Shown here: piece by piece, positions 22,849-35,212 of the stretch
Position numbering within the stretch: position 1 is the first letter of the stretch
Layout of the letters: the number at the start of each line of letters is the position of its first letter
Assembly (NCBI GenBank): GCA_003222675.1
Contig: QHWT01000062.1
Coordinates: 65,447-106,783, forward strand
DNA from: Acidobacteriota bacterium
GTDB lineage: Bacteria > Acidobacteriota > Vicinamibacteria > Vicinamibacterales > 2-12-FULL-66-21
Direction: 5' to 3'
DNA length: 41,337 nt
Made by a program: the position numbers and the translations under genes
Notes under the pieces: generated by a model
The model's input: the letters and a program-made list of their open reading frames with translations, nothing else
What the model was told of the DNA's origin: nothing
The model's database searches: none

Positions 22849-24186
22849 GTGAATATGACGGGCACCAATCTCTGGGACCAGGTCCTGTCCCGCATTGAAA
22901 CCAAGGTCAACCGGCACAGTTTTTACACCTGGTTCAAACCGACGCTGTATGTCGATGAGCGGGAGGGGGCACTCCGTGTGCGGGTGCCGAACACCCTTTT
23001 TCGCGATTGGCTGACAAAACACTATTCCGCCGTCATCGACGAGGCGCTCACCGAAATCCAGCGGCCAGGCACTGAGATCGCCTTTGTAACGGAAGACTTT
23101 GCGGTGCCACCGCCCGTTCCCGAGGCGACGGTGCGGGAGATAGAACCCGAAGACGACGCGGAGGGCGAAGCGGCACGTCTGAGCCCGCGTTATTCGTTCG
23201 ACACGTTCGTCGTCGGTTCCTCCAACCAGTTCGCACATGCGGCGTGTCGCGCCGTCGCGGAGGCGCCGTCGCGCTCCTATAACCCGCTGTTCATCTACGG
23301 CGGCGTCGGCCTGGGCAAAACCCACTTGATGCATGCGATCGGCCATTACGTGGTCACGCACCTGAAGAACTTGCAGCTCACCTACATCTCGTCAGAACGC
23401 TTCATGAACGAGATGATCAATGCGGTTCGTTACGATCGCGTCCTTGATTTTCGCGAGCGATACCGCAGCGTTGACGTGCTGCTGGTTGACGACATCCAGT
23501 TCCTTGCCGGCAAGGAAGGAACGCAGACCGAGTTCTTTCACACCTTCAACGCGCTCTACGATTCACAGAAGCAGATCGTCATCAGCAGCGACTGCCCGCC
23601 GCACGAGATCCCGCAGCTCGAAGAACGACTGCGCTCGCGGTTCGAGTGGGGACTCATCGCCGACATCCAGTCGCCGGATCTCGAGACAAAGGTCGCGATT
23701 CTCAAAAAGAAGGCGGAAACCGAGGGCATTCCGCTGCCCGACAACGTTGCCATCTACATCGCCGGCAAGATCAAATCGAACATCCGCGAGCTCGAGGGAT
23801 CGCTCATCCGCCTGATTGCCTATGCGTCGCTCACCGGCCGGGAGATTTCTCTCCCGCTCGCCCAGGACGTGCTGCGCAACATCCTGCAGAACGACGAGCG
23901 CGCCGTCACAATCGAGGGCGTGCAGAAAGCGGTCGCCGACCACTACTCGCTGAAGCTCGTCGAGCTCAAGTCGAAGAACAATTCGAAGTCTGTGGCGATG
24001 CCGCGGCAGATAGCGATGTATCTTTGCAAGGCGCTGACGAGCGCTTCGCTGCCGGAGATCGGCAGGAGCTTCGGCGGCAAGCATCATTCGACTGTCATTC
24101 ACTCGATCCGCAAGATTGAGGATCTCCGTCAGAAGGATGGAGATTTCAACACACTTATCAACAGCTTGATGGAGTCGTTCCGCTGA
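22849..24186 (+). CDS. dnaA: Chromosomal replication initiator DnaA
   Basis: AAA+ initiator that binds DnaA boxes and opens oriC. Domain I ([25 protein letters not shown]) occupies about residues 8-32. A short acidic linker ([13 protein letters not shown]) follows. The AAA+ core has Walker [10 protein letters not shown] near 151-159, Walker [13 protein letters not shown], and sensor region [28 protein letters not shown]. The C-terminal DNA-binding domain carries [29 protein letters not shown]. The start is GTG 22849; an ATG two codons later is possible. 445 residues. No clear Shine-Dalgarno. It is the first plus-strand gene and marks the divergence point of transcription. Confidence 0.98.
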
Positions 24187-24198
24187 GCAGCGGGGAAG

Positions 24199-24420
24199 TT
24201 TTCCACACCTCGCTGTGGGAAGACCTGTTGATGGGCTGCGGTCATGGACGGGCCCGGAAATTTGCACAAAAGCGCCTCGAGAAATCAGCTGTCGCCGTTG
24301 AGATTTCTCCACAGCGTAAATGTCACATTCTGAAGGACTAATCGACGAAATTTAGCTTTTCAACAGGACCTCTTTCTTGTTATAATTCTTCGTTTCTGAT
24401 TTCTCTCTCCTAAATTACTG
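24199..24420. promoter_or_regulatory. oriC: Origin part 2: DnaA boxes and AT-rich unwinding region between dnaA and dnaN
   Basis: The box TTTTCCACA is at 24199-24207, with weaker matches TGTGGGAAG at about 24214, TTCTCCACA at 24305-24313 and TTTTCAACA at about 24357-24365. From about 24330 to 24420 the sequence is strikingly AT- and pyrimidine-rich for this genome, a good candidate DNA unwinding element. With the cluster upstream of dnaA this gives a bipartite origin like that of Bacillus. Confidence 0.65.
24358..24386 (+). promoter_or_regulatory. Probable dnaN promoter with extended -10
   Basis: TATAAT at 24381-24386 is preceded by TGT (extended -10, TGNTATAAT). A weak -35 (TTTCAA, 24358-24363) stands 17 bp upstream. 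It is about 45 bp before the dnaN ATG and lies inside the AT-rich origin tract. Confidence 0.55.
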
Positions 24421-24430
24421 AGAACACACC

Positions 24431-25546
24431 ATGGAATTGGTCGTCCGGAAGACCGATCTGCTGCGCGAACTGCAACTCTTCCAAGGCATCGTTGAACGCA
24501 AGAACACGATCCCGATCTTGGCGAACGTGTTGCTCGAAGCCAACGGCGCTGAAGTGAAGATGCTCGCGACCGACCTCGAGGTGGGGCTCCGCAGCAAATG
24601 CACCGCGACCGTCTCCAAGGGAGGATCGCTCACGCTTCCGGCGAAGAAACTCTACGAGATCATCAAGGCTCTGCCTGAAACGGACGTCCGCATCGAGGAA
24701 GACAAGGGGGGCGTCAAGGTTGCCGCGGACCGGTTCGACTCGAGGATGCAGACGCTCCCGCGCGAAGATTTTCCGACGCTTCCGGAAGCGAGCGGCAGTT
24801 ACAGCGTCACGCTGTCGCGCGACGTGCTGCGGCAGATGGTGTCGAAGACACAGTTTGCCATTACCGGGGAAGACACGCGCTACTTCCTGAACGGCGCGCT
24901 GTTCATCCAGCGTCCCGAGTCAATGAGCCTGGTCTCGACGGACGGTCACCGGCTCGCGCTGATCACGGTGTCGCGTGAGAAGGGCAACAACAAGCTCAAG
25001 GTCGACGAGGATCGCGTCATTCTGCCACGCAAGACGCTGCTGGAACTCGGGCGCCTGCTGGCGGAAACCGACGGCGACATCCAGTACGAGCGCGGCGAGA
25101 ACCACCTGTTCTTCGAGCTGGGCGGCCGCCTCCTGATTTCGCGGATGATCGACGGCCAGTTTCCGGCCTTCGAGCGCGTCATCCCCAAGGGCCACGACAA
25201 GCGGGTCGAGTTCGATCGCGATCGGCTGACGAGCGCGGTCAAACGCGTCGCGCTGCTCTCGAACGAGCGTTCGCGCGCGGTGAAATTTCAAATGGACAAT
25301 GGCAAGGTGGAGATCGCATCCAGCAGCCCCGAGTTCGGCGAGGCGAAGGAGATCCTCATGGTCGATTACGCCGCCGCGCCGGTCACGATTTGTTTCAACG
25401 CGCAGTACGTCCTCGATTTTCTCGGCGTGGTCGAAACCGACACGGTCTCTCTCGAATTCAAGGACGAGATGAGTCAGGCCGTTTTGAAGCCGATCGGCGC
25501 GGACGGCTACGACTACACGTATGTGATCATGCCGATGCGAATCTGA
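24431..25546 (+). CDS. dnaN: DNA polymerase III beta subunit (sliding clamp)
   Basis: Ring-shaped processivity clamp. The 371-residue protein starts MELVVRKTDLLRELQLFQGIVERKNTIPILANVLLEA and has the three-domain pattern: ALPETDVRIEEDKGGVKV, FAITGEDTRYFLNGALF, STDGHRLALITV and ISRMIDGQFPAFERVIPK. It ends YDYTYVIMPMRI, the typical P-M-R C-terminus. No sign of damage. Confidence 0.97.
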   Translation: MELVVRKTDLLRELQLFQGIVERKNTIPILANVLLEANGAEVKMLATDLEVGLRSKCTATVSKGGSLTLPAKKLYEIIKALPETDVRIEEDKGGVKVAADRFDSRMQTLPREDFPTLPEASGSYSVTLSRDVLRQMVSKTQFAITGEDTRYFLNGALFIQRPESMSLVSTDGHRLALITVSREKGNNKLKVDEDRVILPRKTLLELGRLLAETDGDIQYERGENHLFFELGGRLLISRMIDGQFPAFERVIPKGHDKRVEFDRDRLTSAVKRVALLSNERSRAVKFQMDNGKVEIASSSPEFGEAKEILMVDYAAAPVTICFNAQYVLDFLGVVETDTVSLEFKDEMSQAVLKPIGADGYDYTYVIMPMRI

Positions 25547-28414: not shown

Positions 28415-30898
28415 ATGTCCGATATCGCAGCGTCCAAAGTCCCAGTCAACATCGAAGACGAGATGAAGCGCTCGTACATGGATTACGCGATGAGCGTAAT
28501 CATTGGACGAGCGCTGCCCGACGTGCGCGACGGCCTGAAGCCCGCGCACCGCCGCGTGCTCTACGGCATGCGGACGATGGGCCTTGCGTCGAACCGCGCG
28601 TATCGCAAGTGCGCGAAGATCGTGGGCGAGGTGATGGGGAACTTCCATCCCCACGGCGACGCGTCGATCTACGACACGCTCGTCCGCCTAGCACAGGAAT
28701 TCAACATGCGCTATCCCGTGGTCGATGGCCAGGGCAACTTCGGCTCAATAGACGGCGATCCGCCGGCGGCGATGCGATACACCGAATCGCGCCCGGAAGC
28801 CCTCGCCGAAGCGATGATGACCGACCTCGATAAGGAGACCGTCGACTTCGTCCCGAACTACGACGAGACCACCGAAGAGCCGACAGTACTTCCGACGACG
28901 TTCCCGAACCTGCTGGTGAACGGATCGGCCGGCATTGCGGTCGGCATGGCGACGAACATCCCGCCGCACAACATGCGCGAGGTCATCGATGGCGTGATAG
29001 GCGCGATCGAGCAGCGTGGTCAGTCTCGCGAGGCGCGGCTGAAGGCAGTGCTGCGCGCGGTGGCCGGTCCCGATTTCCCGACCGGTGGGTTCATCGTCGG
29101 CCGCCAGGGCATCTTCCAGGCGTATACGACCGGCCGGGGCGCGATTACGGTCCGCGCGAGGGCCACGACGGAAGAATCGAAGAAGGGCGATCGCGTCTCG
29201 ATCGTCATCACCGAGATCCCGTATCAGGTCAACAAGAAGCGCCTGATCGAAAACATCGCCGAGCTCGTACGCGAGAAGACGATCGAAGGCATTTCGGATC
29301 TGCGCGACGAATCCGATCGCGATGGCATGCGCATGGTCATCGAGCTGCGCCGCGGAGAGGTGCCCGATGTGGTGCTCAATAACCTCTACAAGCACACGCA
29401 GCTCCAGACGACGTTCGGCATCATCATGCTGGCGATCGCCGGCGGCAGGCCGAAGGTGCTGCCGCTGCTCGAGGTCATCGAGAACTTCATTGAATTCAGA
29501 CGCGAGGTCGTCCGGCGCCGGACCGAGTTCGAGCTGCGCAAAGCCGAAGCGCGTGCTCATATTCTCGAAGGATTGAGGATCGCGCTCGATCATCTCGACG
29601 CGGTGATCAAGCTGATTCGCGGATCGAAGAGCCCGGTCGAGGCGCGCGGCGGGCTGATGACCGAGTTCACGCTGAGCCAGCTCCAGGCGCAGGCCATTCT
29701 CGACATGCAGCTCCAGCGCCTCACCGGCCTCGAGCGCCAGAAGATTCTCGACGAGCTCGTCGAATTGATGAAGACCGTCGAGCGACTGCGGGCGATCCTG
29801 TCGAGCGACGAGCTGCTGATGCAGGTCGTCCTGAACGAGCTCAAGGACGTCCGCTCGAAGTTCGGCGACGAGCGCCGGACCGAGATCATCGACGAGAGCG
29901 GCGAGTTCCGGATCGAAGACCTGATCGCCGATGAGGACATGGCGATCACGGTGACGAACACCGGCTATATCAAGCGCACGCCAATCTCCACCTACCGGGC
30001 GCAGCGGCGCGGAGGAAAGGGCCGTATCGGGATGCGAACGCGCGAAGAGGACTACGTGAGTCATCTCTTCATCGCGTCTACGCACGCCTACATCATGATC
30101 TTCACGGATCGCGGCCGCGCCTACTGGCTGCGTGTCCACGAAATCCCGGACGTGGGTCCCGGCGGGAAAGGCAAGGCGATCGCGAATCTGGTGCAGTTTG
30201 TAGGAGAGGAAAAGATTGCCGCGCTGGTCGCGGTGAAGGAGTTCCCCGAGCAGGACGAGCAGCAGTTCGTCGTCATGGGCACACGCAAGGGCACCATCAA
30301 GAAGACCGATCTGACCGCGTTCAGCAACCCGCGCCCGAGCGGCATCATCGCGATGGGCGTAGAGGAGGGGGATTCCGTCATCGCCGTGGAGCTCTCGGAC
30401 GGCAAGGAGCAGATCTTCCTCGGCACCCGCGACGGCATGGCCATCCGGTTCGACGAGACGGATGTGCGCGCGATGGGCCGCAGCGCCTACGGCGTCCGCG
30501 GCATCAGCCTGCGCGACGACGACGAGGTCGTCGCGATGGAAGTCGTCCGCGAAGGCGGCACGCTGCTGAGCGTCGCGCAGAATGGTTACGGCAAGCGCAC
30601 CGAGCTCGAGGAGTACCGGCTCCAGTCACGCGGCGGCGTCGGCATCATCAACATTCAGACCACCGATCGCAACGGCAAGGTCGTCGGCATCTCGTTCGTT
30701 CAGGACGACGACGAGGTGCTGCTGATCAGCCAGCAGGGCATGATCCTGCGTACGAAGGCGGGGGATATCCGGACCATCGGCCGCGCGACGCAAGGCGTCA
30801 GGTTGATCGAGATGGAAGAAGGCGACGCGGTCGTCGCGATTGCAAAGCTGGCGGAAAGGGACGAGGAGGGTGAGGCGCCCGACGTCAATCCCGCATGA
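28415..30898 (+). CDS. gyrA: DNA gyrase subunit A
   Basis: Breakage-reunion subunit of gyrase. The 827-residue protein is complete. The catalytic Tyr is in AAMRYTESR (about residue 122), the GyrA signature [14 protein letters not shown] is near 34-47, and the C-terminal beta-pinwheel has several repeats including [10 protein letters not shown], a GyrA-box-type motif. The quinolone-resistance region reads [11 protein letters not shown]: Ala stands where E. coli has Ser83, as in Mycobacterium, a residue linked to lower intrinsic quinolone susceptibility. It ends 36 bp from a convergent methyltransferase gene. Confidence 0.98.
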
Positions 30899-30926
30899 TG
30901 AACGGCCATGCCGAACGTTGAGCACC

Positions 30927-30958
30927 CCGCTGGCTATAGATCTCGGGCTAGCCGGCGG
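30927..30958. terminator. Hairpin between convergent gyrA and methyltransferase genes
   Basis: CCGCTGGCTA (30927-30936) faces TAGCCGGCGG (30949-30958), a 10-bp stem with one mismatch and a 12-nt loop. It lies between two convergent genes and overlaps the methyltransferase stop. There is no T-tract, so its role as a bidirectional terminator is inferred from position. Confidence 0.4.
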
Positions 30959-32040
30959 ACCGCTGCTGAGTAGAACTCCGGGATTACCTCCGCACTAAAC
31001 GACGTACGCCTGGATACCCGAGCGCAAACGGCAGCAGGACACAGACCGCCAAAAGGTTCCCAGACGACGTCAGCGGGATCGGTCGATGCGTGAATCGCGA
31101 TGTCGACCAGTTTCAGCGGCTTCTGGCTGCCGTGCAGGCTGCTGTACTTCCATTTCATACGCTCCCGCCTGCCGCCAATGCGCTCAGCTCCGCTCACTTG
31201 CGGATGCTTCCAGACATTCGTGATACCAGCGGCACAGGCAAACTTCGCGCGCAATCTGCCCCACTCGTCCGCCGATATGGGCTTGCTGCCATCCACGCTG
31301 AAGTAAGGACGGCCCTCAGGTCTTCCATGTGAGTTTGCGTATTCCGCCAGCTTTTCAAAGGCATCAGGCGGGGGGTAGTACCATAAGTGATCTGCTGTAA
31401 GGTACTTACGCGTTGCGGCATTCAGCACACCGCAGGCCTGATTGGACAGACGTAGCGGAAGGCCAGAGCGCTGCCACTCAGATCGAAGCCATTCCTGCAT
31501 CGAGAGGCTTCGAGCGCCACCGAGGAACCGCGCGGGCTTGAGGTACTGCACGCATACTTCTGTAATGACGGGAAATTTACGCAGCGTCGCGGTGTTCGAA
31601 TTGCCCGCGATATGGCCGATGCCTTTGTCCCACACGTGACAGCAGCGGTACTCCCAACCGTGTTCGATCAGCAGCGGATGAACCGTCGCCCAGCCCAACT
31701 CGGAATTCCAGAACCATAGGGTTGTCTGCGGCGTTGAACGTTCGGACCAGGCAGCAACGTGCGGCCGGTACCACTCAATCAGCTCTGCCGGAGTAGGGGG
31801 ATCGCCAGGAAATCCGCTCAGCCCGTATGGTCCATCGGAGATGATGCACGTCGGAGTTGGCCAGTGTGCATAGAGCTCCTCGGCTGGTTGAAAATGAATC
31901 GTCGCGGAGTCTCTATGGAACATCTCGCCCCGCTGCGGGAGGGGCGCGTCGGTCTCGTCGTGAGAAGGACGGTCCCGCCGCAACGGCCGCTGTGCTCGGC
32001 GCGTCGCGAAGGGCAGCGTCTGATTACTGACATTCTCCAC
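30934..32040 (-). CDS. Site-specific DNA methyltransferase (beta-class amino methyltransferase)
   Basis: Probable N6-adenine or N4-cytosine methyltransferase. Catalytic motif IV appears as ISDGPYG (residues 67-73 from GTG 32040), a DPPY variant. The C-terminal part has the QKP-L element (SQKPLKLVDIAIHAS) followed by the SAM-binding motif DVVWEPFGGLCPAA, so the order is catalytic motif first, SAM motif last, as in the beta class. The middle (LWFWNSELGWATVHPLL, CHVWDKGIGHIAGN, ADHLWYYPPP) is probably target recognition. GTG 32040 has a GGAAAGG Shine-Dalgarno and overlaps the upstream small gene; ATG 31923 (MFHRDSATIHF) is an alternative. No restriction endonuclease is adjacent. Base composition looks less GC-rich than its neighbours, suggesting acquisition. 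Specificity cannot be read from the sequence. Confidence 0.8.
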   Translation of the reverse strand: MENVSNQTLPFATRRAQRPLRRDRPSHDETDAPLPQRGEMFHRDSATIHFQPAEELYAHWPTPTCIISDGPYGLSGFPGDPPTPAELIEWYRPHVAAWSERSTPQTTLWFWNSELGWATVHPLLIEHGWEYRCCHVWDKGIGHIAGNSNTATLRKFPVITEVCVQYLKPARFLGGARSLSMQEWLRSEWQRSGLPLRLSNQACGVLNAATRKYLTADHLWYYPPPDAFEKLAEYANSHGRPEGRPYFSVDGSKPISADEWGRLRAKFACAAGITNVWKHPQVSGAERIGGRRERMKWKYSSLHGSQKPLKLVDIAIHASTDPADVVWEPFGGLCPAAVCARVSRRTSFSAEVIPEFYSAAVRRLARDL

Positions 32041-32179
32041 GAGACACCTTTCCTGCCTTCGAGAGGTAGTGCTCCAGTGCGTCAGCGGTAAGTTCCTGCA
32101 GGTCCCGCTCCTCCTCGATCGCACGAATGTTCACTCGGTTTAGTCGCTCGTGAGGCAGTCGAGGCGTAGTCTTCAACAC
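32024..32179 (-). CDS. Small ribbon-helix-helix-like protein
   Basis: Short frame of about 51 residues from GTG 32179 (TTG 32188 is possible) to TAA at 32024. The pattern LKTTPRLPHERLNRVNIRAIEEERD then LQELTADALEHYLSKAGK resembles a CopG/Arc-type fold: a short strand, helix A, helix B. Such proteins are DNA-binding regulators or antitoxins. It overlaps the start of the methyltransferase by 17 bp and would be translated just before it, so it may regulate that gene. The start lacks a clear Shine-Dalgarno, and the call rests on pattern only. Confidence 0.5.
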   Translation of the reverse strand: MLKTTPRLPHERLNRVNIRAIEEERDLQELTADALEHYLSKAGKVSRGECQ

Positions 32180-32226
32180 GTCGCTCAAGCAGCTATTGCT
32201 GATTCGAACACGCCCGACCGACAGGT

Positions 32227-34506
32227 TTACGCAGGCTCCAGCTTCGCGAACTTAGCCAGCAGCTTCTTCTGGCCGACGGAAATGAAGCGCACGGTGATCT
32301 TCAAATCGTCGTTGTGTTCTTCGACCGACAGCACCGTCCCCACGCCGAACTGGGCGTGGCGGACGCGCATCCCAGAGCGCAGGCCGGCGCCGGGCGTCTG
32401 ATCCTCAGCCTCGTACGCGTAGCTCGCGGCTTCTTCGCGGAACCTGGCGCCCTTGCCTTTGCGGCCGTAGGGGTTCGTCTTGAATTCGTAATGGGCGTGC
32501 GAGAAATTTCCCTGGTAAGGCGACGAATAGACGGGCGTAATCCGCTCGAGCAGCTCGTCCGGAATTTCATTCAGAAAACGTGACGGCTGCGTCGACTGGT
32601 ATTCGCCGAACACCCGGCGCCGCGCGGCGCTCGTGAGGATCAGCCGGGATTCCGCGCGCGTCATCCCGACGTAACACAGGCGCCGCTCTTCCTCGAGCTC
32701 GTCCTCGTCCTCCGCGGATCGGGAGTGCGGGAACAGGCCTTCTTCCATCCCGGCGATGATGACGATGGGGAACTCGAGGCCCTTCGCTGCGTGCATGGTC
32801 ATCATCCAGACCTTGGCCTCGCGTGTCCCCGACTCTTCGTCCGCTTCCGACAGCAGCGACAACCGATCCACGAAACCACCGATAGATGCTTCAGCCTCGC
32901 GTGTTTCGTACTCCTTCGCGGCAGACGCGAGTTCCATCAGGTTCTCGATCCGCTCGTTCGCCTCTTCGCTGTTCTCTTCCCGCAGATCGTTCAGATAGCC
33001 GCTCCGATCGAGCATCTTGCCGATCGTCGTGTAAACGGATTCCCTGCGCGCGATTTCGGCGAGGCCGACGATGAGATCGCGGAATGCACGCAGGGACGCG
33101 ACGGCGCGGTTCGGAAGCTTTCCCTCGTCGACGGCATAGACCAGGCGGGCCCAGAGCGAGCGGGCGGAGCTGACTTCCGCCAGTCCCGCGGCCAGCAGTG
33201 GCGGCGCATCCGCAACGACCGCCTCTGGATCGATCGCCTGCAGCGCATCCATGACGCCCTTGCCGATGCCGCGCGCCGGCACGTTGATCACACGGCGCAG
33301 GCTCACATCGTCATGCGGATTGATGATCAGTTTGAGGTAAGCAAGCGCATCCTTGATTTCCTTGCGCTCGTAGAACCGGACGCCGCCGATGATCTTGTAC
33401 GGGATGCTCTCGCGCATCAGCGAATCTTCGATCGCGCGCGACTGCGCGTTGGTCCGGTACAGGACCGCGATCATCGTGTCGATGTCTTCCGCGCGTGCCT
33501 GCTTGATCGATCGGGTGATGAAGTCGGCCTCTTCGAGCTCGTCGCCTCCGCGGAAGTACACGATCTTCTGGCCACCCTTCCGGTCCGTCCAGAGACGCTT
33601 GTCCTTCCGATTGCGATTCTGCTGGATGACGGCCGTTGCGGCGTCGAGGATCACCTGCGTCGAGCGGTAGTTCTGCTCGAGGCGCACGATCTTCGCCTCG
33701 CCGAAATCGCTTTCGAAGTCGAGGATGTTGCGCAGGTCGGCGCCGCGCCACTTGTAAATGGACTGATCCGGGTCGCCGACGACCGCGAGATTGCGATGAA
33801 TCTCCGCGAGCCGTTTGATCAACATGTACTGCGGCCGGTTCGTGTCCTGGTACTCGTCGACCATCACGTACTTGAACTTGCGCGCGTAGCGCTCGCGCAC
33901 CTGCTGCGAGGTTTCGAACAACTCCACCGTCTTGAGCAGCAGATCGTCGAAATCGAGCGCGTTGCTGTCGACCAGTGCGCGGCGGTACTTCTCGTAGATC
34001 TTCGCGATCTGCTCGTCGCGCAGGTTCCACGCGCCGCGCAGCGCGTCGGGCCCTTCCATGCGGTTCTTGCAATGGCTGATGCGCGACAACGCCGCGCGCG
34101 GCGGCACGAGCTTGTCGTCCATGCCGAGCTCGCGCTGTGCCTGTTTCACGACGGCAACCTGATCGGAGGAGTCGTAGATGACGAAGTCGCGCGACAATCC
34201 GATATGCGGCGCCTCACGCCTGAGCAGCCGAGCGCACAGCGAGTGAAACGTCGAGAGCCACACTCCATTGCACGCTTCGCCGAGCACCGACTCGACGCGC
34301 TCACGCATTTCTCCCGCAGCCTTGTTCGTGAACGTGACGGCGAGCACCTCATCCGGCTCCGCATGGCCGTCGCCGATGAGATATGCGATACGGTACGTAA
34401 TGACGCGCGTCTTTCCGGATCCCGCACCTGCGAGGATCAGCAGTGGGCCATCGATTTGCAATACAGCTTCACGCTGTTCGGGATTGAGCTTTTCGAGGAA
34501 ATTCAT
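32227..34506 (-). CDS. pcrA: ATP-dependent DNA helicase PcrA/UvrD
   Basis: SF1A 3'-5' helicase for nucleotide-excision and mismatch repair and for clearing recombination intermediates. Motifs in order: Q-motif LNPEQREAVLQ; Walker A AGAGSGKTRVITYR at residues 26-39; TFTNKAAGEM; VDEYQDTN (motif II); GDPDQSIYKWRGAD (III); LEQNYRST (IV); MTMHAAKGLEFPIV (V); CYVGMTRAESRL (VI). The C-terminus has the Tudor-like segment (GMRVRHAQFGVGTVLSVEEH) that in PcrA/UvrD contacts RNA polymerase. 759 residues, complete. Confidence 0.96.
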   Translation of the reverse strand: MNFLEKLNPEQREAVLQIDGPLLILAGAGSGKTRVITYRIAYLIGDGHAEPDEVLAVTFTNKAAGEMRERVESVLGEACNGVWLSTFHSLCARLLRREAPHIGLSRDFVIYDSSDQVAVVKQAQRELGMDDKLVPPRAALSRISHCKNRMEGPDALRGAWNLRDEQIAKIYEKYRRALVDSNALDFDDLLLKTVELFETSQQVRERYARKFKYVMVDEYQDTNRPQYMLIKRLAEIHRNLAVVGDPDQSIYKWRGADLRNILDFESDFGEAKIVRLEQNYRSTQVILDAATAVIQQNRNRKDKRLWTDRKGGQKIVYFRGGDELEEADFITRSIKQARAEDIDTMIAVLYRTNAQSRAIEDSLMRESIPYKIIGGVRFYERKEIKDALAYLKLIINPHDDVSLRRVINVPARGIGKGVMDALQAIDPEAVVADAPPLLAAGLAEVSSARSLWARLVYAVDEGKLPNRAVASLRAFRDLIVGLAEIARRESVYTTIGKMLDRSGYLNDLREENSEEANERIENLMELASAAKEYETREAEASIGGFVDRLSLLSEADEESGTREAKVWMMTMHAAKGLEFPIVIIAGMEEGLFPHSRSAEDEDELEEERRLCYVGMTRAESRLILTSAARRRVFGEYQSTQPSRFLNEIPDELLERITPVYSSPYQGNFSHAHYEFKTNPYGRKGKGARFREEAASYAYEAEDQTPGAGLRSGMRVRHAQFGVGTVLSVEEHNDDLKITVRFISVGQKKLLAKFAKLEPA

Positions 34507-34666: not shown

Positions 34667-34843
34667 ATGAGTAAGAACAACAACGTAAATCCTGGGCAGT
34701 ACAAAGTGGCTGGGCGCGAGCGTCCCGGTCAAGACATCACGCCCCAGCGACACAAAGCGGTGGAGTCGGTGAAGGCGCACGAGCTAAAACAACAACGCAA
34801 ACGACAAGGTAAGGATCGCGAGAGCGGTTCCACCGACAAGTAG
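34667..34843 (+). CDS. Small hydrophilic protein of unknown function
   Basis: A 58-residue frame with a strong Shine-Dalgarno (AAGGAG, 7 bp before ATG 34667). It begins MSKNNNVNPGQYKVAGRERP and continues with GQDITPQRHKAVESVKAHEL and a Lys/Gln/Arg-rich tail. It is charged, with no membrane segment and no Cys. I do not recognise a characterised family. Its last 60 bp overlap the 3' end of the convergent four-helix-bundle gene. The good ribosome site and distinctive composition make it a likely real gene. Confidence 0.7.
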   Translation: MSKNNNVNPGQYKVAGRERPGQDITPQRHKAVESVKAHELKQQRKRQGKDRESGSTDK

Positions 34844-35212
34844 TCCGCACCTGCGTTCGAGCGATCTGCGGAGCCCGTGCAATGTCTGGCGAGTCCGATC
34901 GATGCGCTCTCTCAACGGCGCAGTCACTTTGGTGCTGACATAACCCAGTCGTTCGGCGACTTCGAGTTCGGTATCGAGCTCGCCGACCGAACCAAGCGCG
35001 ATCCGAACGTGTTTCAGATAGACGCGTGGCATTCGCGGTGTGTGCCCTTCAGCGATGTTGGACGGTACTGAGACGGCGGCGCGCCGCATTTGTGAGGTGA
35101 GGCCGAACCGCTCACTGTCGGGGAAATCGGCAGTCAATCGGTATGTCAGCTCCGCCGTGGCCATCGCGAGCTGCCATGCCTCGAGGTCACGAAACGACAG
35201 AATCTCTCTCAT
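34784..35212 (-). CDS. Four-helix-bundle (23S rRNA IVS-type) protein
   Basis: Family of small four-helix proteins often encoded in 23S rRNA intervening sequences, but also free in the genomes of many environmental bacteria; function unknown. The typical beginning FRDLEAWQLAMATAELTYRLT and the signature RFGLTSQMRRAAVSVPSNIAEG are clear, then YLKHVRIALGSVGELDTELEVAERLGY and a final basic helix (GLRRSLERR). The last 20 or so residues (LLVGGTALAILTLSFALLF) are hydrophobic and unusual for the family; they overlap the convergent small gene and may be read-through past the ancestral end. No rRNA is nearby. Confidence 0.85.
   Translation of the reverse strand: MREILSFRDLEAWQLAMATAELTYRLTADFPDSERFGLTSQMRRAAVSVPSNIAEGHTPRMPRVYLKHVRIALGSVGELDTELEVAERLGYVSTKVTAPLRERIDRTRQTLHGLRRSLERRCGLLVGGTALAILTLSFALLF

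Follow-up and report, generated by a model that had tools for sequence, protein, structure and literature searches.

An intact solitary DNA methyltransferase, probably acquired horizontally and related to Type II restriction-modification systems, in the gyrA-pcrA gap of an Acidobacteriota bacterium

The window, that is, the whole 41,337-nucleotide stretch of Acidobacteriota DNA that was analysed, carries gyrA (plus strand) and pcrA (minus strand) in convergent orientation, and between them lie two minus-strand frames, a DNA methyltransferase gene and a small ribbon-helix-helix (RHH)-like frame (Table 1). The methyltransferase frame ends with a stop at 30934, and the longest ATG/GTG/TTG frame begins at 32124. 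Translation probably begins at the GTG at 32040, since by eye a start at about this distance before motif IV was seen in several of 19 relatives; residue 41 of the predicted protein (P0001) is an internal ATG that offers a possible alternative. Taking the GTG start, the two frames overlap by 17 nt, which confirms the overlapping two-gene unit reported in a preliminary description of this DNA. To the left of gyrA lie dnaA, dnaN, and gyrB, and we take the dnaA-dnaN-gyrB-gyrA neighbourhood to be the replication-origin gene cluster. The stretch at 23201-24946, which takes in the last part of dnaA (22849-24186) together with the gap between dnaA and dnaN, has the lowest GC of the window (0.55) and may contain the replication origin. 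Upstream of pcrA, positions 34784-35212 encode a 23S_rRNA_IVP family protein.

Table 1. Features of the gyrA-pcrA region (positions in the window).
Feature	Positions	Strand	Length	Remarks
gyrA, left flank	28415-30898	+		Pfam DNA_topoisoIV
Gap, gyrA stop to methyltransferase stop	30899-30933		35 nt	No match to partner
Beta-class DNA methyltransferase, solitary	30934-32040	-	368 aa	From GTG at 32040; Pfam N6_N4_Mtase E 8e-6
RHH-like (VapB/CopG-like) frame	32024-32179	-	50-51 aa	GTG 32179 or TTG 32176; weak matches
Gap, pcrA stop to small frame	32180-32226		47 nt	pcrA and small frame co-directional
pcrA/uvrD helicase, right flank	32227-34506	-		Pfam UvrD-helicase

The insert was described earlier as lower in GC, which is true but mild: its GC is 0.596 compared with 0.637 for the window, and 6.4% of equal-sized stretches of the window are as low, the lowest at 23.2-24.9 kb. 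The contrast with gyrA and pcrA was clearer at third codon positions, where the GC is 0.656 in the methyltransferase and 0.596 in the small frame compared with 0.849 in gyrA and 0.813 in pcrA, and this contrast suggests a foreign origin of the insert. Synteny in relatives had been named as a check on the arrangement, and 12 genomes of the same taxonomic family, including the window's own, were compared. We found pcrA in 11 of these, and gyrA and pcrA on one stretch in nine genomes besides the window's own; in eight of the nine, the gap was short, the aligned ends lying 19-287 nt apart, with no methyltransferase match in it. The gap in one genome (G007; L149:2703-3957) contains ~1.25 kb of other frames without a methyltransferase, one of which has, by eye, a signal-peptide-like start. 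A search for repeats at the insert gave no clear insertion boundary, only two-copy repeats of a chance-like kind, and tandem repeats at a score of 30 or more were not found.

The methyltransferase was present in one of the 12 family genomes, the window's own, where it is a single copy. Among 60 genomes including the window's own, three matched at E<=1e-5, namely the window's genome, G050, and G052, the last with a weak match confined to the final quarter of the methyltransferase. In G050, an order-mate, the ends of the methyltransferase are fused by a large internal deletion (L002:1282-1917), and no match to the partner gene considered below was found in the 3.3 kb around it. Five of 396 genomes of the phylum, again including the window's own, carry the methyltransferase at E<=1e-20. 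Relatives, mostly 43-71% identical, occur on plasmids, mycobacteriophages, viral contigs, and the chromosomes of many phyla. Our comparisons rest on 125 related loci, comprising 80 in the chromosomal set, 38 in the viral set, and seven on plasmids. Since the chromosomal set consists of the best 80 of 456 chromosomal relatives, the partner rates given below hold for the closest chromosomal relatives. Five doubly represented viral contigs (L004-L008, identical to L109, L117, L121, L130, and L133) were counted once, in the second set; the chromosomal loci L039 and L048 lie on one contig.

In beta-class methyltransferases, motif IV precedes motif I and the recognition region lies between them. The window enzyme has this order, running from motif IV (DGPYG, 70-74) through the recognition region to H..QKP (304-309) and WEPFGGL (328-334; P0001 numbering), and relatives share it; in a 14-row alignment the three motifs are invariant except for the third residue of DG.YG. 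The match to Pfam N6_N4_Mtase (PF01555) reached 26.4 bits against a gathering cut-off of 26.7 (E 8.1e-6; 23 bits in a six-frame search), and the PHROGs and PADLOC methyltransferase profiles matched at E 7e-10 and 5e-10. The canonical beta-class motif IV is (D/N/S)PP(Y/F/W), in place of which the window enzyme has DGPYG. Among 118 rows including the window, picked by the looser pattern DG.[YF]G, motif IV reads DGPYG in 77, DGAYG in 37, and DGGYG in 4. DG[P/A/G]YG is accordingly a family-wide variant of motif IV and not decay; no description of this family was noticed among the papers listed by literature searches or in parts of PMC4176335 and PMC3874152. Because the first residue of motif IV is D (DGPY), adenine N6 is predicted as a more likely target base than cytosine N4; this prediction is tentative, as the best PDB match by sequence, though weak (E 0.01), is the cytosine-N4 enzyme PvuII. 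Elsewhere in the same genome, three more matches to N6_N4 methyltransferases exceed the Pfam cut-off (G000:C51, C126, and C108).

What stands next to the methyltransferase in its relatives? In eight of 10 plasmid and phage loci (L009-L015 and L018), the next gene encodes a 'hypothetical protein' of ~310 aa, and several of these genes overlap the methyltransferase stop; of the other two loci, L016 has the gene in broken form and the record of L017 is truncated at its start. PADLOC REase_II matched all seven partners scanned, weakly (E 8e-9 to 2e-3), and Pfam gave no significant match for the seven scanned. A partner profile built from 43 members has E65, FPD97-99, E115, and K117 (L021 numbering) invariant in 43/43, and E, FPD, and ExK residues are those expected of a PD-(D/E)XK nuclease. 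These conserved residues, the gene position, and the weak PADLOC hits together suggest that the partner is a candidate PD-(D/E)XK nuclease and a putative restriction enzyme. A PDB search with the nuclease profile returned three matches at E 0.3-0.4, all to designed proteins; the partner fold predicted from 11 sequences was poor (pLDDT 51) and was not used for a fold search.

An intact partner, defined as one frame over at least 80% of the 304-position profile, is adjacent to the methyltransferase in 75 of the 125 loci (51/80 in the chromosomal set, 18/38 in the viral set, and 6/7 on plasmids), as counted with a profile whose 43 training sequences came from these loci themselves. Given room on the contig (900 nt or more after the methyltransferase match), the partner was broken in 13 loci (10 chromosomal-set, 2 viral-set, 1 plasmid) and absent in 27 (12 chromosomal-set, 15 viral-set, 0 plasmid); in the remaining 10, the contig ends too soon. 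The partner either follows on the same strand or faces the methyltransferase (L086, L095, L096, L098, L105, L107, L109, L110, L112-L114, L116, L119, L130, and L132), and the facing loci are the same gene pair in a second gene order. Nine of 10 plasmid records with the partner also carry the methyltransferase, and all four other holders of the methyltransferase in the 396-genome phylum sample have the partner adjacent.

In the window, on the other hand, a profile search for the partner family found neither a gene nor a remnant of one at E<=1, in agreement with the earlier statement that the locus has no endonuclease. In the window's own genome, the best match to a single partner sequence was a chance one (E 0.76), and an 11-row profile found nothing at E<=1 while recovering the partner in 4/4 control genomes. 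A complete Type II restriction-modification (R-M) system includes a cognate endonuclease, and none of the family's own partner type was found. The earlier label of orphan methyltransferase is therefore upheld, in the sense of an intact gene whose usual partner nuclease was found neither in the window nor in the genome. That the gene is intact is judged from 104 near-invariant columns, conserved to at least 95% in 77 chromosomal-set loci, at none of which the window enzyme departs (0/104). This comparison dropped eight of the 125 loci (motif missing or short), leaving 77/80 of the chromosomal set, and full agreement was seen equally in 31 of the 77. With contig-end loci kept apart, the mean number of departures was 0.8 in 49 loci with an intact partner, 0.6 in 10 with a broken one, and 1.2 in 11 with none.

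The solitary state appears repeatedly in the family. A quick tree of 90 rows was built from the window, 77 chromosomal-set loci, the four other loci of the phylum sample, and 8 of the 45 plasmid and viral loci. It places the window with two intact-partner members and one broken-partner member in a group of four that has a support of 93 (not starred), nested in a set of 42 rows with a support of 98 (starred). Leaving out contig-end loci, the partner state changes at least 11 times on this tree; therefore, partner loss or gain is recurrent. In a solitary clade of five Sorangium loci (L065, L067, L074, L079, and L085), dN/dS is 0.10-0.22 over 10 pairs, and by this measure the Sorangium solitary methyltransferases are under purifying selection. 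A 332-aa gene beside three of the five was considered as an alternative partner and rejected, the copy tested (L074) being CofD. According to passages of PMC4176335, decay within species seldom gives rise to solitary methyltransferases, which more often arrive as such. For the window, the sequence data fit both loss of the nuclease in place and arrival of the methyltransferase alone. The locus can be called a defence remnant, as had been proposed, if a solitary R-M component is meant; in the sense of loss in place, the term would describe one of two possible histories.

Could the small frame control the methyltransferase, as part of the 'cassette' and possible epigenetic switch envisaged in the preliminary description? 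From the TTG at 32176 it would begin MKTTPRLP, as in VapB-like proteins, and it shares with VapB/CopG antitoxins the pattern KTT.RLP...IRA.EE..DL..L..DALE.YL. The Pfam Antitox_RHH match (E 0.14) is below the cut-off. In the PDB, a designed repeat protein (8fje) ranks first with E 0.0022, followed by a CopG protein matched in register (9kkd, E 0.69). Three matches in 59 other genomes, VapB-like by eye, are 35-44% identical (E 0.005-0.007); Pfam named none of them at E<=0.05, and the one at L140 shares an overlap with a PIN-domain gene in the manner of VapB. The small frame outscored 5000 shuffles against each of these three, a test biased in their favour because they had themselves been found with it. 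Structure prediction, proposed earlier for this 51-residue protein, could be carried out and was uninformative: folded alone as a single sequence, without a dimer or alignment, it gave one long helix (pLDDT 78), whereas RHH proteins are dimers with a beta strand followed by two helices. The RHH label thus survives as a weak resemblance to VapB-type antitoxins, and not as a domain match above the cut-off. In antitoxin loci, moreover, the next gene is a toxin, whereas here it is the methyltransferase.

Searches for homologues of the small frame found none in the 125 related loci (three of which have <250 nt upstream) and, at E<=1e-4, none in 395 other genomes of the phylum. As far as these searches reach, the small frame is not conserved while the methyltransferase is, the outcome that the preliminary description had named as refuting its two-gene cassette; control of the methyltransferase, or an epigenetic switch, is possible but unsupported. 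A single plasmid hit (E 0.2), an RHH-like Paracoccus gene before a CHAD gene, was rejected as a homologue, as were 105 phage records at E ~4, of which the 20 listed are all annotated as DNA polymerase. The position upstream of the methyltransferase is not always empty of regulators. Among the matches listed (25 of 77 matched families) for 149 of 153 upstream frames, exact or near duplicates having been dropped, there were four HTH_26 frames, one HTH_17, and one of an addiction-module family, and the upstream frames of L012 and L015 matched RHH families weakly. Small HTH frames, candidate control proteins of the methyltransferase by their position, lie up to ~180 nt upstream (L119:3591-3821, L132:3591-3821, L113:3661-3876, L093:1412-1789, and L114:3829-4011); those of L093, L114, and L119 were confirmed singly and those of L113 and L132 by eye. 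The overlapping case is the HTH_17 frame, which ends 10 nt inside the L114 methyltransferase match. Because a few relatives have small DNA-binding frames within a few hundred nt, a regulator in this slot is not far-fetched; such regulators are occasional, and no fixed partnership with the methyltransferase was seen.

Taken together, it is probable that the intact methyltransferase in the gyrA-pcrA gap is a solitary member of a Type II R-M family that came by horizontal transfer, accompanied by an RHH-type frame and probably transcribed by read-through from pcrA. Because the nuclease-like partner usual in relatives was not found here, we read the locus as half of a defence system rather than a new switch. 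The methyltransferase would have been acquired horizontally and inserted with the small frame between gyrA and pcrA. No sigma-70-like promoter was found in the region, and because of this and the 47-nt gap, read-through from pcrA is the likely source of the transcript; terminator-like sites numbered 2, compared with 1.4 in shuffles. The enzyme would then methylate one short sequence, more likely at adenine N6, and might shield the host from same-family nucleases on incoming plasmids and phages. This proposal is in line with the antidote role of solitary methyltransferases discussed in parts of PMC4176335 and with the attenuation of host killing discussed in parts of PMC3874152. The RHH protein is most likely the product of a stray antitoxin-type gene, a repressor brought along with the insert that would at most damp its own operon.

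It is also conceivable, though unlikely, that the methyltransferase is a recently acquired passenger with no selected role, whose decay is yet to come. The patchy distribution (the window's own genome is the sole holder among the 12 of the family), the third-codon GC unlike that of the neighbours, and the deleted copy in the order-mate would all fit such a passenger. The absence of departures at the 104 columns argues against it, though a very recent arrival would look alike, and so does the purifying selection in the solitary Sorangium clade. A regulated two-gene unit, in which the RHH protein represses its own transcription, the overlap couples translation, and methylation is kept low or bistable, is quite improbable in our view. 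The 17-nt overlap on a shared strand, the RHH-like pattern with its CopG match, and the small DNA-binding frames (HTH_26, HTH_17, and weak RHH) upstream of the methyltransferase in a few relatives speak for it. On the other hand, such a unit would sit with just 47 nt upstream and no sigma-70-like site found there, its RHH homologue was not detected in the 125 related loci, and the repeats seen are chance-like two-copy ones, with no tandem repeat at a score of 30 or more. A more speculative version is that, without the nuclease, the antitoxin-type repressor was recruited via the overlap, giving a self-damped methyltransferase beside the dnaA-gyrase cluster that tracks the pcrA level, an early stage in the conversion of a defence remnant to a host epigenetic regulator; to this we attach very little probability. 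Least credible is a working R-M system with a non-homologous nuclease elsewhere in the genome, for although the methyltransferase is fully conserved (0/104) and, according to parts of PMC3874152, the genes of one system may be unlinked, 75 of the 125 related loci have the family partner next to the methyltransferase and searches of this genome did not find it, and parts of PMC4176335 state that hardly any systems with genes far apart have been found to work.

Returning to the solitary methyltransferase, the closest known systems are those Type II R-M systems whose methyltransferase is of the beta class (PADLOC MTase_II / REase_II PDLC03583). The window enzyme shares homology with partner-bearing members of its family along most of its sequence. 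It differs in the DG[P/A/G]YG type of motif IV, set against the (D/N/S)PP(Y/F/W) of the class, and in the nuclease, which in relatives is adjacent, often with an overlap of a few nt, and was not found here. Dam and CcrM are conserved core genes in their groups, whereas the window methyltransferase occurs in a single one of the 12 family genomes searched, the window's own. Like Dam, CcrM, and the solitary methyltransferases of phages and plasmids, it stands without a cognate nuclease found, and its family lies on mobile elements (parts of PMC4176335). In Type II systems controlled by C proteins, as treated in parts of PMC3874152, a small putative DNA-binding frame likewise lies just upstream on the same strand. 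The C protein, however, is an HTH protein conserved with the R-M genes, whereas the window frame is RHH-like and not conserved, and there is no nuclease to delay.

For the window itself the significance is modest, as it adds one more solitary methyltransferase, a known kind of thing. The family, on the other hand, spans loci that are complete, broken, or lack the nuclease. With this natural series one can test the debated question of whether solitary methyltransferases originate from complete systems by decay or by separate transfer. The family is widespread and R-M-like, its motif IV is unusual, and the plasmid and phage records examined label its likely nuclease hypothetical. On Cutibacterium pTZC1, the plasmid locus L014 is close to tet(W). 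Plasmids of human skin bacteria are among the carriers of this likely nuclease.
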